From: Faecalibacterium sp. I4-1-79
Lineage (GTDB): Bacteria; Bacillota; Clostridia; Oscillospirales; Ruminococcaceae
NCBI RefSeq assembly: GCF_023347235.1
Contig: NZ_CP094467.1
Span: 1,488,001-1,552,000 of the forward strand
Reading direction: 5' to 3'
DNA: 64,000 nt
A program made the position numbers and the translations under genes. Under the pieces are notes generated by a model. It worked only from the letters and a program-made list of their open reading frames with translations. It searched no databases and was not told where the DNA came from. This document shows positions 51,898 to 62,270 of the stretch, one piece after another. The number at the start of each line of letters is the position of its first letter. The first letter of the stretch is position 1.

Positions 51898-54230
51898 ATT
51901 TCTATCCACGCCCTCCTCGCGGAGGGCGACCGTTGTACAGCGTACCGGGTCTGTACAAACTGTAAATTTCTATCCACGCCCTCCGCGAGGAGGGCGACAT
52001 GGGTTACAACACCTTACAGGCAATCATGCAAGATTTCTATCCACGCCCTCCGCGAGGAGGGCGACTATAGCTCATAACGTAGTTGAAAGCCCACGTTGAA
52101 TTTCTATACACGCCCTCCGCGAGGAGGGCGACTCGCCACGTCCCAGCCGTTCTTGATGACGTACTGTATTTCTATCCACGCCCTCCGCGAGGAGGGCGAC
52201 GATCAGATCCTGACTGCTCTCGTCCTTGCCGCCAAAATTTCTATCCACGCCCTCCGCGAGGAGGGCGACGCTTCTGCGATTTTGTCACGGTCTGCCATCG
52301 CCTATTTCTATCCACGCCCTCCGCGAGGAGGGCGACCGGCGGCGGCTGATGCCGGTGCGGGCAAGTACCCGAATTTCTATCCACGCCCTCCGCGAGGAGG
52401 GCGACCGACGACTACCTTGTTAAAATCTTAGATATCCTACATTTCTATCCACGCCCTCCGCGAGGAGGGCGACACTGGGCTATCGTCACAGGCGAACTCC
52501 TTAACTTTATTTCTATCCACGCCCTCCGCGAGGAGGGCGACAATCATACCAGACGAATGCGGCATAATCGTATATAATTTCTATCCACGCCCTCCGCGAG
52601 GAGGGCGACCTGCGTCTGGCTCTAATCTCTCTCAGTTCGTCAATTTCTATCCACGCCCTCCGCGAGGAGGGCGACATTTGATGGCACTGATTAAAATCAA
52701 GGACGTAAAAATTTCTATCCACGCCCTCCGCGAGGAGGGCGACTATTAACTTGTTGTAGTAGTAGTAGTGTTATTTCTATCCACGCCCTCCGCGAGGAGG
52801 GCGACGCCGCTCTGGTTACTGTTCGTTATGATGCCAGTTAATTTCTATCCACGCCCTCCGCGAGGAGGGCGACACGCACTTCCGCGTCTATCGGCAGAGT
52901 GGATTCAAGATTTCTATCCACGCCCTCCGCGAGGAGGGCGACATGGGGCAAAGGCTTTGTGATCATCGGCGCAGCGATTTCTATCCACGCCCTCCGCGAG
53001 GAGGGCGACCAGTACGAACCGGAGTACAAAGAGCGGTACGACATTTCTATCCACGCCCTCCGCGAGGAGGGCGACTCATCTGTGCCGGCTGTTGCAAGTT
53101 TTCATCCCGATTTCTATCCACGCCCTCCGCGAGGAGGGCGACCGCTCCAGACCGTTGGAACATACTGGCAACGTTGTATTTCTATCCACGCCCTCCTCGC
53201 GGAGGGCGACTATACCACAAACGCACCTCATGGTCAAGAGGTGTTATTTCTATCCACGCCCTCCTCGCGGAGGGCGACTGATTTTCACCCCCTTTTTATC
53301 CATTTTTTACCAAATTTCTATCCACGCCCTCCTCGCGGAGGGCGACCCCGGACGGCGCTGCGTTCTGCCCATGGTGCGGATTTCTATCCACGCCCTCCTC
53401 GCGGAGGGCGACACGGCGTTTCTTCTACTTCCCCCATGAAGTATTTATTTCTATCCACGCCCTCCTCGCGGAGGGCGACCTGACATCCATTCTTGCGAGA
53501 GTGTAGGCACTTCTATTTCTATCCACGCCCTCCTCGCGGAGGGCGACACTTGCGCTGTTGCAATCATGCGGTGATACTCGTATTTCTATCCACGCCCTCC
53601 TCGCGGAGGGCGACGACCCGGATATTTGCGTCAACTGCCCGCTTGAGGATTTCTATCCACGCCCTCCTCGCGGAGGGCGACGGCCTTGCCTGCCGGTGTC
53701 CCGGCCAGCGTGAGACATTTCTATCCACGCCCTCCTCGCGGAGGGCGACTTTGCTTCGCGGTCGCTGCATTCGCGGTACTTGTGCATTTCTATCCACGCC
53801 CTCCTCGCGGAGGGCGACGTCTGCGTCTGGCTCTAACTTCTCTTAGCTCGTCAATTTCTATCCACGCCCTCCTCGCGGAGGGCGACGCGCGGGCGCGCGC
53901 AGCAGCGGGCGCACGCCGCGGATTTCTATCCACGCCCTCCTCGCGGAGGGCGACCAGCGGCTGCAATCCATGGTCGAGGACTTGCCGGAGATTTCTATCC
54001 ACGCCCTCCTCGCGGAGGGCGACGCTGACCTACTTGATAAGTGGGATGTATCAATAGCGATTTCTATCCACGCCCTCCTCGCGGAGGGCGACAGGCGGCT
54101 CCCCTTAAGGCATAAAGGGGAACAGATATATTTCTATCCACGCCCTCCTCGCGGAGGGCGACCCTGCCCCTCGGTATCGATGAGCGACAGCTTGCTGATT
54201 TCTATCCACGCCCTCCTCGCGGAGGGCGAC
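51898..54230 (-). CRISPR. Type I-C CRISPR array, 35 repeats and 34 spacers
   Basis: Repeats are 33 bases; in transcript orientation each begins GTCGCCCTCC, has a 4-base loop, then GGAGGGC, and ends GTGGATAGAAAT, as in type I-C. Spacers are 33-37 bases except one of 29 (52744-52772). Repeat 1 (51898) and repeats 20-35 (53178-54230) share one loop; repeats 2-19 (51966-53142) carry its reverse complement. Repeat 4 (52100-52132) has one substitution in the handle. The leader lies at the right, next to cas2, so spacers near 54.2 kb are newest. Apparent reading frames across the array are repeat artefacts. Confidence 0.98.
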
Positions 54231-54410
54231 AGCAAAAACAGAGAGAAAACCCTCTGCGTTTGTCTCATTATACACCTCTCTGCACAAATTGCAAAGAGAT
54301 GTCTGCAAACCAAACCGCAAAATCACACCGTTACTTGCGCAAACGGCTGGTATTCCGGTGCGAAGCGTCCCGGAAAACCATGTGTGCTGCCGATTCGCAC
54401 TGGCCGGACA
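54231..54410 (-). promoter_or_regulatory. CRISPR leader and pre-crRNA promoter
   Basis: Minus strand: TTGCAA (54289-54294), 16-base spacer, TATAAT (54267-54272), then about 30 bases to the first repeat. The AT-rich 180 bases between cas2 and the array are the leader. Confidence 0.75.
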
Positions 54411-54701
54411 TCAAAAGAGCAACACGCTGTCTTGGGCAAATTCTGGGTGCAGTCCAACCTGCTCGACCTTGGTCTGGTAGTTGTTGCCCAGCTGGTAGAA
54501 CCGCAGACTGTCCAAGGCAGGGTCGATCAGGGCGGTCAGCTCTGCTTTGAGAACTGCGTACTGCGAAGCGTTCAGCAGGCATTCGAACACGGAATTTTGC
54601 ACCCGCTGCCCATGATCTACGCACTTCTTGGCAACCTTGCGCAGCCGCTTGCGTCCGGCGGAGGTCTCGGTGTTTACGTCGTAGGTGATCAGTACTAGCA
54701 T
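54411..54701 (-). CDS. cas2: CRISPR-associated endonuclease Cas2
   Basis: Ninety-six residues starting MLVLITYDV with the ferredoxin-like fold and the conserved Asp8 and SVFEC motif. Partner of Cas1 in spacer integration. It lies nine bases after cas1 and last before the leader. Confidence 0.95.
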   Translation of the reverse strand: MLVLITYDVNTETSAGRKRLRKVAKKCVDHGQRVQNSVFECLLNASQYAVLKAELTALIDPALDSLRFYQLGNNYQTKVEQVGLHPEFAQDSVLLF

Positions 54702-54710
54702 GATTGCACC

Positions 54711-55742
54711 TCATTTCCAGAAAAACGGAGGGTAAACCTCTAAATCGCCCCGCAGGGTGCGCGCCAGCAGCAACGCCTGCACATAAGGCACAAGCCCCCA
54801 GCAGAGCTTTTCCTTCAAAAACGGGTGGGTGATGACTTCGCGCTTTTTCTGCTGCCATGCGTTCAGGAATGCACGGCGTCCCTCCTCGGTCAGCAGAACG
54901 GCACCGTTTTCCTGCTTTTCAAAGTGCTTTGCATTCAGCACTTTCTGGTTGATACAGGACAACACGAAACGGTCAGCCAGAACGGTGCGTAGCTCTTCCA
55001 TCAGATCCAATGCAAGGCTGCGCCGCCCGGGACGGGCGCGGTGCAGAAAGCCCACATAAGGGTCCAGCCCGGCACCCTCCAGCGCAGCGGCGCAATCGCT
55101 GGCCAGCAGGGAATAGGCAAAGGACAGCAGCGCGTTCACATTGTCCAGTGGCGGTCTGCGGCTGCGGCAGGTAAACACAAAGGCATCGTTCTGCTGTAAG
55201 ATCAGCGCGTTGAACCGGTCGAAGTACCGCTGTGCAGCTTCGCCTTCCAGCCCGCGCAGCTGCTCCAGATCCTCGCAGCCTTCCACCAGCGGTAGGGCAG
55301 CCGCCAGTTGTGCGCTGGTCTGTTTCAATTCGTCCACGGGCACCCGCTGCGGGTGGTCCCGGGTGGCGCGCTCCAGCACCCAGCGGGCATTGTAAACCTT
55401 GCCCAGAATAAAGCTGCGGGCATAGCTACAGCTGAGCGCTTCACTGGAGGCAACGGCGTACTGGGTCTGCCGCAGCAATACGTTGCCGCGTTCCTCGCCC
55501 ACAGTGCGCGCTAAAAAGCGGCCGCGCGGGGTATAAAAGCTCAGGTCGATGCCCATACGCCCGCATTTGCCCATTAGCGCAGGGCTGGCACCGCTGTAAC
55601 TGAAGCAGAGGATGCTTTCCAGCGTGTGCAGCGGCACCCGCCCGACCTCGGATTTCCCACGGCTGACCACAACGTTTTCGCCGTCCAGCGTGAGGTAAGC
55701 GTCCTCGCTGAGGACGAACAGGGAGTTCAGGAATTGCCGCAT
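54711..55742 (-). CDS. cas1: CRISPR-associated integrase Cas1 (type I-C)
   Basis: Metal-dependent integrase of 343 residues, the usual Cas1c length. N-terminal beta domain with ENVVVSRGKSEVGRVPLHTLE; C-terminal helical domain with the PPLDNVNALLSFAYSLLASD segment and downstream acidic and His ligands (GFLHRARPGRRSLALDLMEE). GGAGGTG fixes ATG 55742. It overlaps cas4 by 16 bases. Confidence 0.96.
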   Translation of the reverse strand: MRQFLNSLFVLSEDAYLTLDGENVVVSRGKSEVGRVPLHTLESILCFSYSGASPALMGKCGRMGIDLSFYTPRGRFLARTVGEERGNVLLRQTQYAVASSEALSCSYARSFILGKVYNARWVLERATRDHPQRVPVDELKQTSAQLAAALPLVEGCEDLEQLRGLEGEAAQRYFDRFNALILQQNDAFVFTCRSRRPPLDNVNALLSFAYSLLASDCAAALEGAGLDPYVGFLHRARPGRRSLALDLMEELRTVLADRFVLSCINQKVLNAKHFEKQENGAVLLTEEGRRAFLNAWQQKKREVITHPFLKEKLCWGLVPYVQALLLARTLRGDLEVYPPFFWK

Positions 55743-56413
55743 GGTGTCACCTCCGTGGCCGTCTCGTCCAGATAGCGCCGCAGATAAGCCTTGGCGTCTG
55801 CCTTCTGGCAGAGCATCGGCAGACAGAGCTCTTTCAGGGAACAGGCGTTGCAGTGCTTGCCGGGCTTTACCTTTGGGGTGTAGCCGCGGGCAAAATACTG
55901 GTTCATTTCGTCCGCCATCTGCCGGGTGGTGCTGCGCAATTCGTCGGTAAAAGGTACGACCTCCCGCCGCTTCGTCTCGCAGTAATACAGCGCCCCTTCC
56001 GGGATATGGCACACCAGCATTTCCTCCAGCGCCATGGCCTGTGCGCATAATTGCAGCCGGTCGGCATCGGTTTCCTTTGCGTGGCCGTGCTTGTACTCCA
56101 CCGGGTAGGGCTGCCAGCGCCCGGGGGTGCTTTGCAGCGGGATGCCATCCGCACAAGCCCGGAACTCCACCACGTCACAGTTGCCGGACATCCGCAGCCG
56201 GTGGCTGGTCACCCGCATTCCCCGAGTGATCAGCAAATCGCCCCGGCGCTCGGTGCGGGTGTCATCGTGGCAGCGGGTATGGTTCAGCTGTCCTTCGGTG
56301 GTGCGCAGATTTTCTGCCCATTGCTGCTCCAGATGGATCAGTGCCCACTGGCGGCGGCAGAAGGCAAAATGCTGGATGCCGGACATTTGCAGGTAGTCAT
56401 CCGGCGCGTCCAT
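55727..56413 (-). CDS. cas4: CRISPR-associated exonuclease Cas4
   Basis: Iron-sulfur nuclease of 228 residues that processes prespacers and helps set the PAM. Cys19 (HFAFCRRQ) and the C-terminal CNACSLKELC supply the cluster; PVEYKHG near 113 holds the nuclease Glu and Lys. Start overlaps the cas7 stop (ATGA). Confidence 0.95.
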   Translation of the reverse strand: MDAPDDYLQMSGIQHFAFCRRQWALIHLEQQWAENLRTTEGQLNHTRCHDDTRTERRGDLLITRGMRVTSHRLRMSGNCDVVEFRACADGIPLQSTPGRWQPYPVEYKHGHAKETDADRLQLCAQAMALEEMLVCHIPEGALYYCETKRREVVPFTDELRSTTRQMADEMNQYFARGYTPKVKPGKHCNACSLKELCLPMLCQKADAKAYLRRYLDETATEVTPCGNS

Positions 56414-57312
56414 CAGTGGAACCTCTCGCAGTGTACACCCTCCGGCAGGGTGTCGGCCACCGTAACGGTGTAGTCCTGATAGCTGCGGGGCGCGACCACC
56501 TCGGCCTTGTGCTCCACGGTAACGGCATCGAACAGCTTATAGGCGGGCGCATTGCCCAGCTCGGAATCGTGCTTGAACACGATCAGCTCCCGCACGGCCA
56601 TCTTGCCGCGTGCAGCACTGTGGTCGTTTTCGAACATATTCAGGATAGCCTGCCACAGCAGCTGCAAGTCCTCTTCCGAGAAGCCGGTGGTCTTGCGGGC
56701 AAGATTGGCAGAAACGTAACCCTCGGCACGGTACAGACCGTAGGGCACGATATGCTTGTTGCCCATTTCACTGTTCTTCTTTTCAGCGTCTGCCTCGGTG
56801 GTGATGGCTACGCGGGTAATGGTCACCTCCTGCGGCACGATAGGGTCAACAGAGCGGGCGAAGCTCAGCTGCACCGGCCCGCGCACCTGGCCGCAGTTCA
56901 GCGCACCCTTGACAAAGGTGGTCATCACGGCACCGAAGGTGCGGATATCGTAGAAATGTTCGCACATATAATCCCGCAGCTTGCGGTCGATATCCGGGTC
57001 GCTTTTCTTGGCCTTTTTCAGGTCGTCCTTGGGGGTCAGACCGTTGTGCTCCAGCGCCTCGGCATCACTGCGGTTCAGGGGTACGCCCTCCTTGACATAG
57101 ATGCGGTAATTGTCGGCATCGGGGGCGTCCTCCTTCAGCGTCTCCACATAGTTGCGGATCTTGCGCTTCAGGCAGACATCGGTCACCAGACCGTAGCCGG
57201 TCTCGGGGTCGATGCGGGGCATATTACCGGCATCGGGGTCGCCGTTGGGGTTGCCGTTCTCTACATCGAACAGAATGACGAAATCGTAGCGGTTCTTGAT
57301 AGGTGCAGACAT
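56413..57312 (-). CDS. cas7: Cas7 (Csd2), Cascade backbone
   Basis: RAMP-family backbone subunit of 299 residues that coats the crRNA spacer. Begins MSAPIKNRYDFVILFDVENGNPNGDPDAG, the DVxNGNPNGD block typical of Csd2 (quoted in part: DVENGNPNGDPDAG). Internal PVQLSFARSVDPI is also conserved. Confidence 0.96.
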   Translation of the reverse strand: MSAPIKNRYDFVILFDVENGNPNGDPDAGNMPRIDPETGYGLVTDVCLKRKIRNYVETLKEDAPDADNYRIYVKEGVPLNRSDAEALEHNGLTPKDDLKKAKKSDPDIDRKLRDYMCEHFYDIRTFGAVMTTFVKGALNCGQVRGPVQLSFARSVDPIVPQEVTITRVAITTEADAEKKNSEMGNKHIVPYGLYRAEGYVSANLARKTTGFSEEDLQLLWQAILNMFENDHSAARGKMAVRELIVFKHDSELGNAPAYKLFDAVTVEHKAEVVAPRSYQDYTVTVADTLPEGVHCERFH

Positions 57313-57316
57313 TTTT

Positions 57317-59083
57317 TTATTCCTCCTCGTTCTTTTTGACGTAACGTTTCTGGGTCTGGTGGTAGTAGCCGATGGTGAATTTACCCTGATCCGGCAGGCT
57401 GAGCCGAGCGGGGAAACCGCTCTCCGGCAGCTGTGCCATCAGTTCGGTGATCTGCTTATCGTAGTGGGTGGCAAGGCCGTCATTCAGCTTGCGCAGATGC
57501 TTCTGGCTCAGCCGCAGCAGGGTGGGGAAGGACATACCCGGCGTGGCGCAGGCGGCGTTGAAATACCGGTCCTTGATGGTAGTGTTGATGCCGGGGTTGG
57601 CAGCTTTTTGCACAGCCTCCAGCACAGAGAACAGCCGTCCCAGAAGATAGGGGACATTGGTGGTTTCGTTCAGGCTCACAGTATAGACCTCCTTGTTCAG
57701 TTCGGTAGGGTAATTACGCAGGTAATACGCTTTGATCACAGCAGCCCGGCCGCGGGTCACATTCTGCTCGGCACGGATACGCAGGGTCACACCGTTCAAT
57801 AGGGTTGCGGGATAGCGCCCGCCGGTCAGCACGGCGCGCAGCAGGTCGCCTGCCAGCTGCGGGGACGGGTCAGGCGGCGTACTGCCTTTGACGGTGCGTA
57901 CCGTAGTCAGAGCAACAGACCAGACAGATAGATATTCGCGTATGTCGAGGTCTGGTCGGGCGATTGCAGTCTCATCTAAAAAACGCTGGAGATTCTTGGA
58001 AAATGCTCCAAAGGTATCCCGCATGAAAAAACGAACAGATAGCCGTGCTGCGTTTGGTGAAAGACCCAGAATACAGAAATGCTCATCGGGCTGTAACTCG
58101 ATACCGTTAAAATGTACATGTTGTCCAAGCGCTAACTTTTTCATTATTGCAGCGAGTTCGCCGTTCAAGTCACTGGAAAAAAACATAGAAAAAGCATCGG
58201 AATAAGCTGGTTCTGCATTTTCGGCCCAGAAGACCATGGCGGTGGAGCTACTGCCACTACCTAGAATGCGACAATGATTTTTACGGTCAGCCAAGAGATA
58301 ATTCAGTGCAGTGGTATAGGCAAAGGCGGCGTACTTGCTGACAGGGGCATTATCGCCCTGCTCGTGACCGTAGGAGCAGAAGGCCGGTGCGTTGAAGGAT
58401 ACCAGTGCTGCGCCGGAGCTTTGCGCCCCGGGCACACCGCTGATATTCGGATGGGTGCGCTCGATAGGGGCATATTTTCCGGTAATCAGGCATTGCCCCA
58501 TGTCGGAATCAGCAGAGCGGTCGTTGTAGTGCGCCTGCCAAGCGTTCTGAATGGCAGGGTCGTCATTGACAAAGCTGTGACTGTGGTCGGCAGCTTCGTA
58601 GCCAAAGATCAGGTTGGCGTTGCCGGTGATCTCCTTCCACTGCTCAGCCAATAGGGGATGCGCGGCAGCCTGCGCCGGATCCCAGCTGTCAAAATAAGCA
58701 AGGAGCGCCCGGGCTGCGGGGCTGTCTACACCGTCTAGAATGACGTGATGCAATTTGGCACAGGCCTTGAAGCAATCCGCAGCGCGCTCCGGCTTGCCTT
58801 TTTCGTCTGCGCCCAGCAAATAGGTGGAGTTATCGCACAAAAAGTTGGCGGCAATGCCGGAGGAACGCTTTTCATGCGCCGGTACGCGCATTGCACGCGG
58901 GGCAAGGACTGTCTTTTTGCCCATCTTCGTTTCTGTGCGCAGGTCGAGCACGGAAACCAGCTGCCCGGCATCGTTCAACCGCAGCTCATAGCTCACCTTA
59001 AAGCTGTCATCCCAGCCGGGGGCAGAAAGCTTGCCCTGCCGGACAAGCTGCTCGTAATAGGCAGTAAGTGCCTGTAAGATCAT
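57317..59083 (-). CDS. cas8c: Cas8c (Csd1), Cascade large subunit
   Basis: Large subunit of 588 residues, responsible for PAM recognition in type I-C; an internal start in the family also yields a small Cas11-like subunit. Family features are the N-terminal ILQALTAYYEQLV, LVSFNAPAFCSYGHEQGDNAPVS around residue 230 and the C-terminal YYLGRLFSVLEAVQ-like helix. It overlaps cas5 by four bases. Confidence 0.95.
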   Translation of the reverse strand: MILQALTAYYEQLVRQGKLSAPGWDDSFKVSYELRLNDAGQLVSVLDLRTETKMGKKTVLAPRAMRVPAHEKRSSGIAANFLCDNSTYLLGADEKGKPERAADCFKACAKLHHVILDGVDSPAARALLAYFDSWDPAQAAAHPLLAEQWKEITGNANLIFGYEAADHSHSFVNDDPAIQNAWQAHYNDRSADSDMGQCLITGKYAPIERTHPNISGVPGAQSSGAALVSFNAPAFCSYGHEQGDNAPVSKYAAFAYTTALNYLLADRKNHCRILGSGSSSTAMVFWAENAEPAYSDAFSMFFSSDLNGELAAIMKKLALGQHVHFNGIELQPDEHFCILGLSPNAARLSVRFFMRDTFGAFSKNLQRFLDETAIARPDLDIREYLSVWSVALTTVRTVKGSTPPDPSPQLAGDLLRAVLTGGRYPATLLNGVTLRIRAEQNVTRGRAAVIKAYYLRNYPTELNKEVYTVSLNETTNVPYLLGRLFSVLEAVQKAANPGINTTIKDRYFNAACATPGMSFPTLLRLSQKHLRKLNDGLATHYDKQITELMAQLPESGFPARLSLPDQGKFTIGYYHQTQKRYVKKNEEE

Positions 59084-59730
59084 GCAAACACCTCCACATC
59101 CCGGCAGTCCAGCACGCCGTTTTCCAGCTTTGCCCGGAAGAACTGGGAGCGGATATTTTCCGGGTCGGAGTAGTCCAGATCATACAGCATAAAGCCCAGA
59201 TCCTGCGTGAGCGGCAGTGCGGGGATCTCTTCAGCCTTGCCGTGCCATTCCCGGAAGTTTGCCGGAAACTCCCGGCAGCCAAAGCAGGGCTGGTGATAGC
59301 ACTGCCCCTTGGCAAGCCGCCGCCGCAAGATATCCTGAAATTTGCCCGGGTTATCGCCGGGTGCGGCTTTTTCGGTCATGGTAAAATGGCATTCGATCAC
59401 GTAGTGCACATCTTGCAGCACCAGCGCTGCCCGCTGCTGGATATTCTCTGCCGTGCACAGCATGGGCACCTCGCCGCCCTTGGCTGCACTGAGCGCTGCC
59501 GAGGATCGCAGGGTATCCTTGACCTCATTGCGCCGGATGCTGGCAAACTGCACCGGCTTGAGCAGGTAGATGCGGTCGATATGGTACTTCATGCCCGGGT
59601 GCCAGTAAATAGCCTCCACCAGCCCGCGTGCCGCCGAGGGCGTCATGATGTCATAGGATACACGCTCGGTTTTCATCTCGGGTCTTGAAAAGCAGGCGTA
59701 GTCGCCCCAGACCTCGATCAGCATGGACAT
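59080..59730 (-). CDS. cas5: Cas5c (Cas5d), crRNA-processing Cascade subunit
   Basis: In type I-C this protein replaces Cas6: it cuts pre-crRNA in the repeat and holds the 5' handle. The 216-residue protein starts MSMLIEVWGDYACFSRPEMK and has the family DIMTPSAARGLVEAIYW block near residue 30. I chose ATG 59730 because GGAGGTG (59743-59737) is six bases before it; GTG 59739 would overlap that site. First gene of the cas5-cas2 transcript. Confidence 0.95.
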   Translation of the reverse strand: MSMLIEVWGDYACFSRPEMKTERVSYDIMTPSAARGLVEAIYWHPGMKYHIDRIYLLKPVQFASIRRNEVKDTLRSSAALSAAKGGEVPMLCTAENIQQRAALVLQDVHYVIECHFTMTEKAAPGDNPGKFQDILRRRLAKGQCYHQPCFGCREFPANFREWHGKAEEIPALPLTQDLGFMLYDLDYSDPENIRSQFFRAKLENGVLDCRDVEVFA

Positions 59731-59810
59731 GAACACCACCTCCTTTCATTGTTTATTTGAATCTTCAGACAAAGAGAAAACTTGCCCACATAAACCACCT
59801 CTTTCTGCAT

Positions 59811-59848
59811 TTCAATTATTAAGTAAAGGACGTATAAGAATTTCTGAG
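59811..59848 (+). other. Predicted target site of the crRNA-like RNA
   Basis: A TTC PAM (59811-59813) is followed by a protospacer from 59814. Its first 24 bases match the spacer-like segment at 59960-59983 at 18 positions; mismatches are at 6, 9, 12, 14, 18 and 23. It covers the expected start region of the cas5-cas2 transcript on the opposite strand. Confidence 0.6.
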
Positions 59849-59851
59849 CCT

Positions 59852-59880
59852 AGAATAACACAATTTGATCAATAATACAA
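59852..59880 (-). promoter_or_regulatory. Predicted promoter of the cas5-cas8c-cas7-cas4-cas1-cas2 transcript
   Basis: Minus strand: TTGTAT (59875-59880), 17-base spacer, TATTCT (59852-59857); start expected near 59845, 115 bases before the cas5 ATG. It is back-to-back with the RNA promoter at 59889-59917. Confidence 0.55.
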
Positions 59881-59888
59881 GGGGAAAC

Positions 59889-59917
59889 TTGCAATTTAAT
59901 GCTTTTTTTCGTATACT
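59889..59917 (+). promoter_or_regulatory. Promoter of the crRNA-like RNA
   Basis: TTGCAA (59889-59894), 17-base spacer, TATACT (59912-59917). The expected start, six to seven bases on, is G59924, the first base of the degenerate repeat. Confidence 0.7.
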
Positions 59918-59923
59918 GTTGCT

Positions 59924-60027
59924 GTCATCCGGTGTGTACACTGGGATGTGGATAGAAATAATTAGTAGGTCATGGATGTATGACGGGGAAACGGCAGAGC
60001 GACAGATGCTTTGCCGTTTCTTCATTT
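59924..60027 (+). ncRNA. Solitary crRNA-like RNA in the cas5-cas3 gap (CreA/CreR-like)
   Basis: A degenerate CRISPR repeat (59924-59959) begins GTC like the array repeat. It forms a stem-loop (CATCC/GGATG and GTG/CAC, loop TGTA) and ends with the exact 12-base 3' part of the repeat, GTGGATAGAAAT. A spacer-like segment (59960-59987) and a terminator-like hairpin (59988-59996 with 60012-60020, then a T-rich tail) follow. It is antisense to the cas genes with its own promoter. I infer processing by Cas5c and use as a guide to the cas operon start. No toxin gene is evident beside it; 60028-60107 holds nothing else. Confidence 0.7.
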
Positions 60028-60107
60028 ATCAAATACTATATTACAACAAATAAAATACAATAAAAAGGACTTCTAAGGGCTATCTTGGCCTTATTTTTAG
60101 CTTTTGG

Positions 60108-62270
60108 TCAGAAAAACAGACCTTTTCCGGTCTCCACATCCATGGAAAGCCCGGTCTTAGGGTCGTACAGGGTGCTGTCAGTCAGGATAGCGCTGCCGTT
60201 GGGCAGTGGTTCCAATGCTCCGGCAGCATCCAGTGCCTGAAACTGCTGGGCATAACAGGCTACGCTGTAAGCGCCCAGCTTGCGGTAAAGTGTGCGGCTC
60301 ACAGTCCCACTGCGCAGCTGGTCGCAAAGGGCTTTTCCTTCGCCAATGGGCAGGTAAACGGTGCGGGTGGGGGCTTCGATCAGATGGAACTGTTCAGCCA
60401 CCTGTGCAAACGGGAAAATGCAGCCCGAGATCCCCTTGCGCAGGGCGTCCAGAATGCTGCTTGTGTCCAGTGCGGCCTCACCCCGCGCAAAATACAGCTC
60501 CTTAAAATAAGCTCTGACCGCCTCCGGGCTGTCCAGCGCTGCGGCGCAGCCTGCTGCGTACTGCATGGCGTGTACGTTCTGGCGCAGCATCTGCGGTACG
60601 CCGCAGCCTTCCAGCGTAAAACGGTATACCAGGCTCTCTTCCACGCTGCGGTGTCCCTCCCGGTTGCAGCGTCCGGCGGTCTGCAAAAGGGAGTCCAGCC
60701 CGCACTGCTCCCGGTATGCGGCGGGGAAATCCACGTCCACACCTGCTTCGATCAGCGAGGTGGACACTACCCGGCAGGGCAGGCTTTCCCGCAGCCGCCG
60801 CCGGATCTCTGCCAGCTGGCGGCGGCGGTCTGCGGCGCACAATAGGGTGGTCAGGCAGTAGCTGCCCTCGGCAGGCAAGGCGGCGTACACTTCCTGCGCC
60901 GTTTTGCGCCGGTTCACTACGCACAGCACCTGCGGCAGTGCGCAGAGCTGCGAAGTCAGCGCTTCCAGCGTCAGCTCTCCGGCATCGCAAAGGGTGGTGC
61001 GACGCAGGGTGGTGTACAAGGTGGCAGTGTCCGGCACGATCTCCTGCAAGGGCAGTTCCGGCGCAAACTGCCGGAAATAGGGCTCTAATGCGGGCTGGGT
61101 GGCGGTGCATAACACGGCGGTGGCGTTGTAATGCCGCACCAGCTGCGCAATAGCACTGACGCAGGGCAGCAGATAACTGGTGGGCAGGGTCTGCGCTTCG
61201 TCAAAGATGATCACACTGTTCGCAATGTTGTGCAGCTTGCGGCAGCGGCTGCTGCGGTTAGCGTACAGCGATTCAAAAAACTGCACCGCAGTGGTCACCA
61301 CAACAGGTGCATCCCAGTTTTCGCTGGCCAGCAGCTGGCGGTACTGCGCGGGGGTCAACTTTTCCTGTTCGAGGCTTTTATAGTCTGCGCAGGAGTAATC
61401 CGCCAGAACGTTTTCTGCGCCCAGAAGGTCTGCAAAAACAGCGGCAGTCTGGTCGATGATGGACATATACGGAATCACATAGATCACCCGCTTCATGTCC
61501 TGCGCAGCGGCCTGTTCCAGCGCAAAGGCAAGGGAGGCAAAGGTCTTGCCGCCGCCGGTGGGCACGGTGAGGGTATACAGCCCCGGTGCGCCGTGGGCAC
61601 CTTTCTCCATGCAAGCCCGCAGCACGGCATTGCGCTGGCTGCCTACCGGCAAGGTGCTCTGTGCCGCAAGATAGCCCGCCGCCTTGGTACGCACCTTTTC
61701 CAGAAGAGAAGAAAGCGCGGTGCTGCTGCCCCGGGGCGCGGCCTGCCCGTTCATAAAAGTTTCGGTGTCGATAAAATCCGCATCCACAAGACAGGAGTAG
61801 AGCATCCGGGTAAAGAATGCAAAATCCAGTGGGTCGCGGTTTGCCCAGTCCGGCGGGGCGCTCTGGGGCAGGGTGACCTCGCGCCAGCCATCGTAAGGCT
61901 CCACCGGTTTTTTCAGCCGCCCGAACAGGGTAGCGTCAGCGGCATCGGCTGTTCTTCGATTGCCGCCATCCGGCAGACCGGTGTGGTGCCCGGCTACGGC
62001 AAAGGCGGCCTGAACGTGGGGCGCACAGCCCTTCATCGCTTCCTGTGCACCGGCGGTCGAGTGGTCGGTTGCAGCACCGCCCGCCAGGCGCTGCTGAAAG
62101 GCGGCGCTGTATTTGCCAATATCATGCAGCCACGCGGCGTATTCGGCCTCCTCTTTTGCACCAAAGGGTGCGGCAAAAGCTCCGGCAAGGCGCGCTGTGC
62201 CGGAAAGATGTTCGTAGACGGTCTGGGTGCGGGTTCCGTCCTCGGAAATATGTGCAAGTGCTTTTTCCAT
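60108..62270 (-). CDS. cas3: Cas3 nuclease-helicase (type I-C)
   Basis: Effector of 720 residues recruited by Cascade to degrade target DNA. N-terminal HD nuclease domain: WLHDIGK (H49, D50), HH at 95-96, Asp in CLVDADFID near 163. SF2 helicase: Walker A PTGGGKT (237-243), DEAQ box (357-360) and motif VI QTAGRCNREG. GGAGG precedes ATG 62270. It is separated from cas5 by 377 bases and has its own promoter. Confidence 0.96.
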   Translation of the reverse strand: MEKALAHISEDGTRTQTVYEHLSGTARLAGAFAAPFGAKEEAEYAAWLHDIGKYSAAFQQRLAGGAATDHSTAGAQEAMKGCAPHVQAAFAVAGHHTGLPDGGNRRTADAADATLFGRLKKPVEPYDGWREVTLPQSAPPDWANRDPLDFAFFTRMLYSCLVDADFIDTETFMNGQAAPRGSSTALSSLLEKVRTKAAGYLAAQSTLPVGSQRNAVLRACMEKGAHGAPGLYTLTVPTGGGKTFASLAFALEQAAAQDMKRVIYVIPYMSIIDQTAAVFADLLGAENVLADYSCADYKSLEQEKLTPAQYRQLLASENWDAPVVVTTAVQFFESLYANRSSRCRKLHNIANSVIIFDEAQTLPTSYLLPCVSAIAQLVRHYNATAVLCTATQPALEPYFRQFAPELPLQEIVPDTATLYTTLRRTTLCDAGELTLEALTSQLCALPQVLCVVNRRKTAQEVYAALPAEGSYCLTTLLCAADRRRQLAEIRRRLRESLPCRVVSTSLIEAGVDVDFPAAYREQCGLDSLLQTAGRCNREGHRSVEESLVYRFTLEGCGVPQMLRQNVHAMQYAAGCAAALDSPEAVRAYFKELYFARGEAALDTSSILDALRKGISGCIFPFAQVAEQFHLIEAPTRTVYLPIGEGKALCDQLRSGTVSRTLYRKLGAYSVACYAQQFQALDAAGALEPLPNGSAILTDSTLYDPKTGLSMDVETGKGLFF

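Follow-up and report, generated by a model that had tools for sequence, protein, structure and literature searches.

A lone repeat between cas3 and cas5 of Faecalibacterium as a likely type I-C variant of the CreR kind of cas regulators

Regulators resembling crRNAs

Autorepression of cas genes by CreR has been treated in several reviews (PMC12737573, PMC12948488, PMC13131331), according to which a crRNA-like RNA with partial complementarity to a cas promoter brings the repression about, and competition by crRNAs or anti-CRISPRs relieves it. The name, which reportedly goes back to Liu et al. 2023 (Cell Host & Microbe), is given for types I-B, I-E and V-A in a 2026 review (PMC13131331). CreR is encoded by a two-repeat mini-CRISPR, a form that it is not known to require. 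CreA of CreTA, found in type I-B haloarchaea, occurs in H. hispanica in a one-repeat form with a T-rich terminator end; its positions 6 and 12 are unpaired, and a seed of positions 1-5 and 7-11 behind a TTC PAM was shown (PMC8501985). Type I effectors leave every sixth base unpaired. The phage RNA anti-CRISPRs called Racr include RacrIC1, a solitary type I-C repeat unit (PMC10651486), and standalone repeats whose spacers are partly complementary to cas promoters are reported to occur in diverse type I systems and also in phages (Shmakov et al. 2023, NAR). No description of a type I-C CreR was recognised in the literature searched, which excluded Liu 2023 and Shmakov 2023, and this is weak evidence.

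The element considered here lies between cas3 and cas5 in a window from Faecalibacterium sp. I4-1-79, the window being the whole stretch of 64,000 nucleotides that was analysed, and has counterparts in other type I-C loci, called the family below. Element and family are likely to represent a type I-C variant of the CreR kind, the repression itself being inferred. A CreR should be a repeat-derived RNA gene in the cas locus outside the array, which is met here by sequence, promoter and terminator with transcription inferred, and it should show PAM-flanked partial complementarity to the cas promoter region, which is also met, although the cas5 promoter of the window was placed by hand. Different from the described CreR are the subtype, I-C with crRNAs processed by Cas5, the mostly single repeat, the start at the first base of the repeat and the pairing of about 17 nt. 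The two-repeat form is not met, as the window has one repeat and a terminator; because a one-repeat CreA exists (PMC8501985), this was treated as variation. With CreA the element shares the seed of positions 1-5 and 7-11 behind TTC, the free positions 6 and 12 and the one-repeat form. However, CreA targets a toxin promoter, whereas element and family target the region upstream of cas5 or cas3, and the pairing in the family runs on through positions 13-17; the promoter of an adjacent toxin gene, the mark of a CreA, is not the target in the window, where the target lies upstream of cas5. With Racr it has the solitary type I-C repeat unit in common, but Racr is a phage-borne inhibitor, whereas the window's element is chromosomal with a selected guide; situated between cas3 and cas5, it does not answer to a decoy on a mobile element with an unselected guide.

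The cas3-cas5 gap and its small-RNA gene

The window contains a complete type I-C cas operon on the minus strand, in which cas3 (60108..62270; TIGR01587 and TIGR01596) is followed, after a gap of 368 nt, by cas5 of type I-C (59080..59739; TIGR01876, E 1.9e-48; read from the sequence, ATG 59730 is its likely start), cas8c (57317..59083; TIGR01863, E 5.4e-138), cas7 (56413..57312; TIGR02589, E 1.4e-105), cas4 (55727..56413; TIGR00372, E 1.5e-32), cas1 (54711..55760, start approximate; TIGR03640, E 1.7e-142) and cas2 (54411..54701; TIGR01573, E 6.6e-20). Beyond cas2 lies the CRISPR array (51898..54230) with the repeat GTCGCCCTCC-GCGA/TCGC-GGAGGGCGTGGATAGAAAT, read on the same strand as the operon. 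Its repeats occur in two forms differing by the inverted palindromic loop, CTCC-GCGA-GGAG proximal to the leader and CTCC-TCGC-GGAG farther off, the first recurring at the far end. Two array spacers, TGACGAGCTAAGAGAAGTTAGAGCCAGACGCAG and TGACGAACTGAGAGAGATTAGAGCCAGACGCAG (about 53853-53819 and 52642-52610, minus strand), are near-duplicates, and related targets may have been sampled repeatedly. A search of Rfam with 59700-60140 gave zero matches at E up to 1, and no gap-like DNA was detected in INPHARED phages at E up to 0.01. That the gap's two short ORFs encode small proteins was considered and rejected: clear relatives occur only in L014, a locus of Faecalibacterium longum (E about 1e-6), where they are found on both strands, a pattern expected from DNA likeness, and all matches outside L014 stand at E 0.08 or worse.

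On the plus strand, opposite to the cas operon, the gap presents in this order a promoter, a lone degenerate repeat, a guide and a terminator, the element extending over 59924-60027. The predicted promoter (59889..59917) was found by scan with a score of 9 of 12 and consists of TTGCAA, 17 nt and TATACT, the -10 box ending 6 nt ahead of the repeat; the scan found two promoter-like sites, against 1.2 expected per shuffled region. The initial annotation had claimed a lone degenerate repeat with an intact handle and a stem-loop on this strand. Direct reading upheld the repeat and its handle: the stem sequence of the type I-C-like repeat GTCATCCGGTGTGTACACTGGGATGTGGATAGAAAT (59924..59959) is almost wholly different from that of the array repeat, whereas its 12-nt handle GTGGATAGAAAT (59948-59959) is identical to the array's. 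The hairpin of the repeat by itself folds, but not beyond chance (z -1.1; 29/200 shuffles as good), and stem strength was dropped as evidence for the repeat. The handle is followed by the guide (59960..59983), which measures 24-27 nt up to the terminator stem and of which, judged from relatives, positions 1-17 are the selected part. An intrinsic terminator hairpin with a U-rich tail (59985..60027), recognised by folding and by a strict stem scan that gave 15 pairs, is expected to form the 3' end of the transcript; a simpler scan did not report it. Compared with shuffled copies, the whole RNA of 104 nt folds far better (z -5.3), owing mostly to the terminator, and in the predicted fold guide positions about 10-25 are paired among themselves. 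The array leader (54228-54294, minus strand) and the small-RNA promoter region (59889-59926, plus strand) have TTGCAATTT in common, plus TTGCTGTC at the repeat start, a hint that the element possibly originated as a leader-repeat copy.

The guide matches a protospacer-like target upstream of cas5 (59814..59837, plus strand; first 17 nt 59814-59830), which lies where the cas5-cas2 unit is predicted to start and behind a TTC PAM (59811..59813, plus strand). As claimed initially, 18 of 24 positions agree, with mismatches at 6, 12 and 18 among others, the remaining ones being 9, 14 and 23; past the usual 17 nt the guide still matches at 19-22. On the family score explained below the window attains 13/15, exactly the threshold. 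Among 5000 dinucleotide-shuffled gaps none reached 13/15 or 18/24 if TTC was required, and a single one reached 18/24 without the PAM demand; the shuffling proposed as a check thus failed to reproduce the match. In the genome, a search for the PAM and the first 17 nt of the guide, with 6 and 12 free and up to three mismatches, returned six places, of which the cas5 target alone has two mismatches and is the closest, while the other five, one being the element itself, have three; one earlier search with a target-fitted pattern was not counted. The cas5 promoter is less well defined: promoter scans found no good one for the window's cas5, and the consensus score is poor. It was placed by hand at 59852..59880 on the minus strand (TTGTAT at 59880-59875, 17 nt, TATTCT at 59857-59852), guided by the similar TTGACA-17-TATACT that L014 has at the equivalent site, and is weak alone. 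By this analogy and hand reading, the cas5 transcript might start near 59845, which would place the target at about +8 to +31. The initial location of the target at the predicted start of the cas5-cas2 transcript is consistent with this, but depends on the hand-placed promoter.

Guide-target pairs across type I-C loci

Loci with cas5 were gathered from GTDB contigs (68) and from genus, order and phylum. The order listing contributed 99 of 107 places, together with G018 from the genus (of the other eight, two were already included and six partial or weak), and the phylum listing 80 of 115, with four more already included; the 178 and 80 loci collected came to 247 distinct ones after removal of duplicates (10/178 and 1/80). 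Over as much as 3.6 kb ahead of cas5, every handle-like motif (238) was examined, guides adjoining masked N being skipped, and scored by the best TTN-preceded match to its next 17 nt, positions 6 and 12 ignored (maximum 15). The cut-off of 13/15 was set after the split of scores had been seen in earlier scans. Upstream sequence is uneven: it covers only about 1.5 kb in most loci of the whole-genome genus survey, some contigs break off early, and in such cases elements upstream of cas3 can be missed.

A handle-led guide with a match of at least 13/15 in its own upstream region was found in 54 of 247 loci (54 guides), whereas only 1 of 2380 shuffled guides reached this score; the remaining 193 loci fail. 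The 238 motifs divide into 54 at 13-15, 14 at 11-12 and 170 at 7-10. By sample, 19/68 contig loci pass, as do 24/92 from the order, 6/79 from the phylum and 5/8 further genus loci. Tried on target regions of other members, the guides reached 13/15 on 24 occasions out of 2862, and in 22 of these the two members involved had similar guides. Forty-five elements lie within 1 kb of cas5, taken as the cas3-cas5 gap, and nine farther out, upstream of cas3. Presence follows the length of this gap, which was derived from an open-frame rule and not from annotation: 36/47 at 250 nt or more, 9/18 at 150-249, 2/31 at 60-149, 6/144 below 60 and 1/7 where it is unknown. Of 35 checkable loci, 18 have a handle identical to that of their own array (9.8 expected; 0/10000 shuffles). 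A strict scan recovered a terminator for 38 of the 54 members, 25 of which have a terminator stem that starts 25-28 nt into the guide, and some repeats are reduced to 25 nt with a 3-bp stem. In the 48 of 54 members that could be scored for a -10 box and a GTC, the distance between the two is 6 nt in 25, the window included, and 7 nt in six; because of this spacing in 31/48, transcription probably starts at the repeat itself, which supports the initial claim of a promoter with its start at the repeat's first base, transcription remaining inferred. Several repeats stand at the element in two loci, three in Desulfosporosinus sp. SRJS8 (L058:5694-5850, minus strand) and two in one Oscillospiraceae MAG (L041:4066-4150, minus strand), and in both the promoter region is matched only by the guide behind the last repeat; these are perhaps stages between a mini-array and the one-repeat form.

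Since the score presupposes both PAM and free positions, a circularity control was run without PAM demand and with all 17 positions scored (168 loci, 101 with a handle). Here 62 of 144 guides reached 13/17, compared with 21/288 shuffled and 13/144 cross-locus, by which rates chance may account for roughly one in five of the 62. Their PAMs were TTC in 39 and TTT in nine cases. Match rates amounted to 0.89-0.98 at positions 1-5, 7-11 and 13-15, 0.82 at 16 and 0.76 at 17, and to 0.29, 0.26 and 0.26 at 6, 12 and 18, with 0.18-0.42 beyond. This profile is likely the print of a type I R-loop, an inference from sequence alone. In the family proper, PAMs are TTC in 44 of 54, TTT in nine and TTA in one, TTN having been demanded; positions 6 and 12 match in 8/54 each against 14.4 and 13.2 expected, a slight shortage not used as evidence.

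Guides and targets also change together. Among 36 pairs of members whose guides are similar, the 540 cells at pairing positions include 89 double changes that compensate each other and 34 uncompensated changes, while at positions 6 and 12 none of 72 is compensated and 56 are free changes; the pairs share members and are not independent events. Between L034 and L040, for example, the guides differ at positions 1 and 5 and the targets differ alike, and the same applies to L003, L004 and L006. Extended DNA likeness to the window's gap exists in only one of the 246 other loci, F. longum L014 (70% over 121 nt at the element), in which the guide is another one and the target has changed to correspond. 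If a 1-nt bulge is allowed, its match reaches 20/23 (0/5000 shuffled guides); since it fails at 13/15, the locus was not counted with the 54. On the basis of this co-variation, L014 included, the match is taken to be maintained by selection, a further trait that a CreR should have, and the check suggested initially, an alignment of relatives' gaps, found match, PAM and repeat remnant conserved and co-varying. The element could also be a dead CRISPR unit left by decay of an array, its match a coincidence. The repeat is indeed lone and degenerate, but shuffles and co-variation contradict a chance match, and this reading is all but excluded.

The genus itself gives a mixed picture. Of ten genomes with a cas5 match, five pass (L003, L004, L006, L007, L011) and L014 does so only with its bulge; no element was found in the other four, L209 with a gap of about 100 nt (read under its duplicate L005), L012 without a handle in a gap of 281 nt, and L002 and L008, whose gaps measure 49 and 31 nt and for which the upstream sequence examined extends over only about 1.5 kb. 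The window's copy might be a decaying relic of a real family, its function already lost. In favour are the score at the threshold with additional mismatches at 9 and 14, the self-folding of the guide in the predicted fold, and the lack of an element in L012 and L209, genus relatives with enough upstream sequence. Against it, the window's copy has kept its promoter spacing, its handle, its terminator and its PAM, the matches at 19-22 may compensate, and the match of L014 is likewise atypical, being longer and bulged; the relic is considered unlikely.

Two further explanations concern the target. According to the first, the RNA would pair with the leader of the cas5 mRNA as an ordinary small RNA does, in antisense or in trans, and Cascade would have no part in it. 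Indeed, 47 of 54 members have a guide complementary to the cas-sense strand, and the target is often where a leader is expected. However, in the other seven members the target is on the opposite strand. Placed by the best nearby promoter, 34 of the 54 targets overlap -35 to +20, three lie downstream, including the window's, and 17 lie 0-15 nt upstream of -35, the last outside the transcript unless there is read-through from cas3; since the scan chose for every target the best site in its neighbourhood, this placement partly reflects that choice. PAM and free positions 6, 12 and 18 are, moreover, properties of Cascade and not of RNA-RNA pairing, which leaves this explanation very unlikely. According to the second, a CreA-type antitoxin RNA would have its true target in a toxin gene elsewhere, the cas5 match being secondary. 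CreA RNAs are alike in degenerate repeat, short seed, TTC PAM and one-repeat, terminator-ended form (PMC8501985); yet no other PAM-flanked place in the genome matches as closely as the cas5 site, and in 54 loci a match has been retained upstream of the locus's own cas5, the only region scanned. It is judged very unlikely, too.

Proposed regulation, a phage-borne copy and wider meaning

Anatomy, a match beyond chance, conservation and co-variation are shown. Likely, but inferred as to transcription, loading, repression and sensing in the absence of RNA or expression data, is the interpretation of the element as a type I-C CreR limiting its own cas operon. In this model the promoter at 59889-59917 would start an RNA of roughly 100 nt at the first base of the repeat, to be ended by the terminator. 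Cas5, the crRNA-processing protein of type I-C (PMC10651486), would cut or hold the handle, yielding a Cascade with a short guide, which would bind the cas5 promoter or start region by means of the TTC PAM and about 17-22 partly matched bases. Such pairing would be too short for a full R-loop and for cleavage by Cas3, and the bound complex would block transcription of cas5-cas8-cas7-cas4-cas1-cas2 until Cascade became scarce or was loaded with crRNAs of the array. In type I-B, spacers of 24 bp repress without interference or priming, while those of 28 bp still cut somewhat (PMC10989794); guides of the family are near this limit and pair over fewer bases. Because pairing positions 9 and 14 are broken and guide positions about 10-25 are engaged in the predicted fold, repression in the window could be weak. 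The autorepression proposed in the initial annotation, with relief under scarcity of Cascade or competing crRNAs, is supported at the level of the family and inferred for type I-C; beyond that annotation, the element was found to belong to a family whose paired part generally comprises only about 17 nt.

Scans of viral sequences with six guide-class patterns returned 23 stretches. Twenty-two look like chance, lacking the combination of repeat hairpin and terminator, which is present only in L325:2124-2200 (plus strand) of viral contig IMGVR_UViG_3300028326_000020, where a lone I-C-like repeat GTCAGGGCGTAAGCCCTGCGGATTGAAAT is followed by the guide TATTACATGTA and a terminator. The contig is that of a phage, with terminase and replication-initiation genes. 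Its seed agrees with the cas5 target of Faecalibacterium L003 in 10/10 of positions 1-5 and 7-11 behind TTC, a match partly selected for, since guides of this kind had gone into the search pattern. The host is not settled: the terminase matched 1135 phage records, all below 60% identity (best about 32%), and had matches in 5 of 148 genomes of the same family (best 52%).

A bolder reading joins these observations: a widespread, mostly one-repeat CreR in type I-C of Clostridia, with pairing of 17 nt in three segments and two docking sites, at the start site and just upstream of -35, together with phage copies such as L325 able to switch off the cas genes of the host. As a joint claim we consider it less likely than not. 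If the main interpretation, the self-limiting type I-C CreR, is right, type I-C systems of many Clostridia would limit their own expression through an RNA that reads out free Cascade, cas autoregulation would be extended to a subtype with Cas5-processed crRNAs, and a natural rule for binding without cutting would be suggested, about 17 nt with 6 and 12 free, a rule that could be tested on the co-varying guide-target pairs catalogued here. It would also suggest where phages could interfere.
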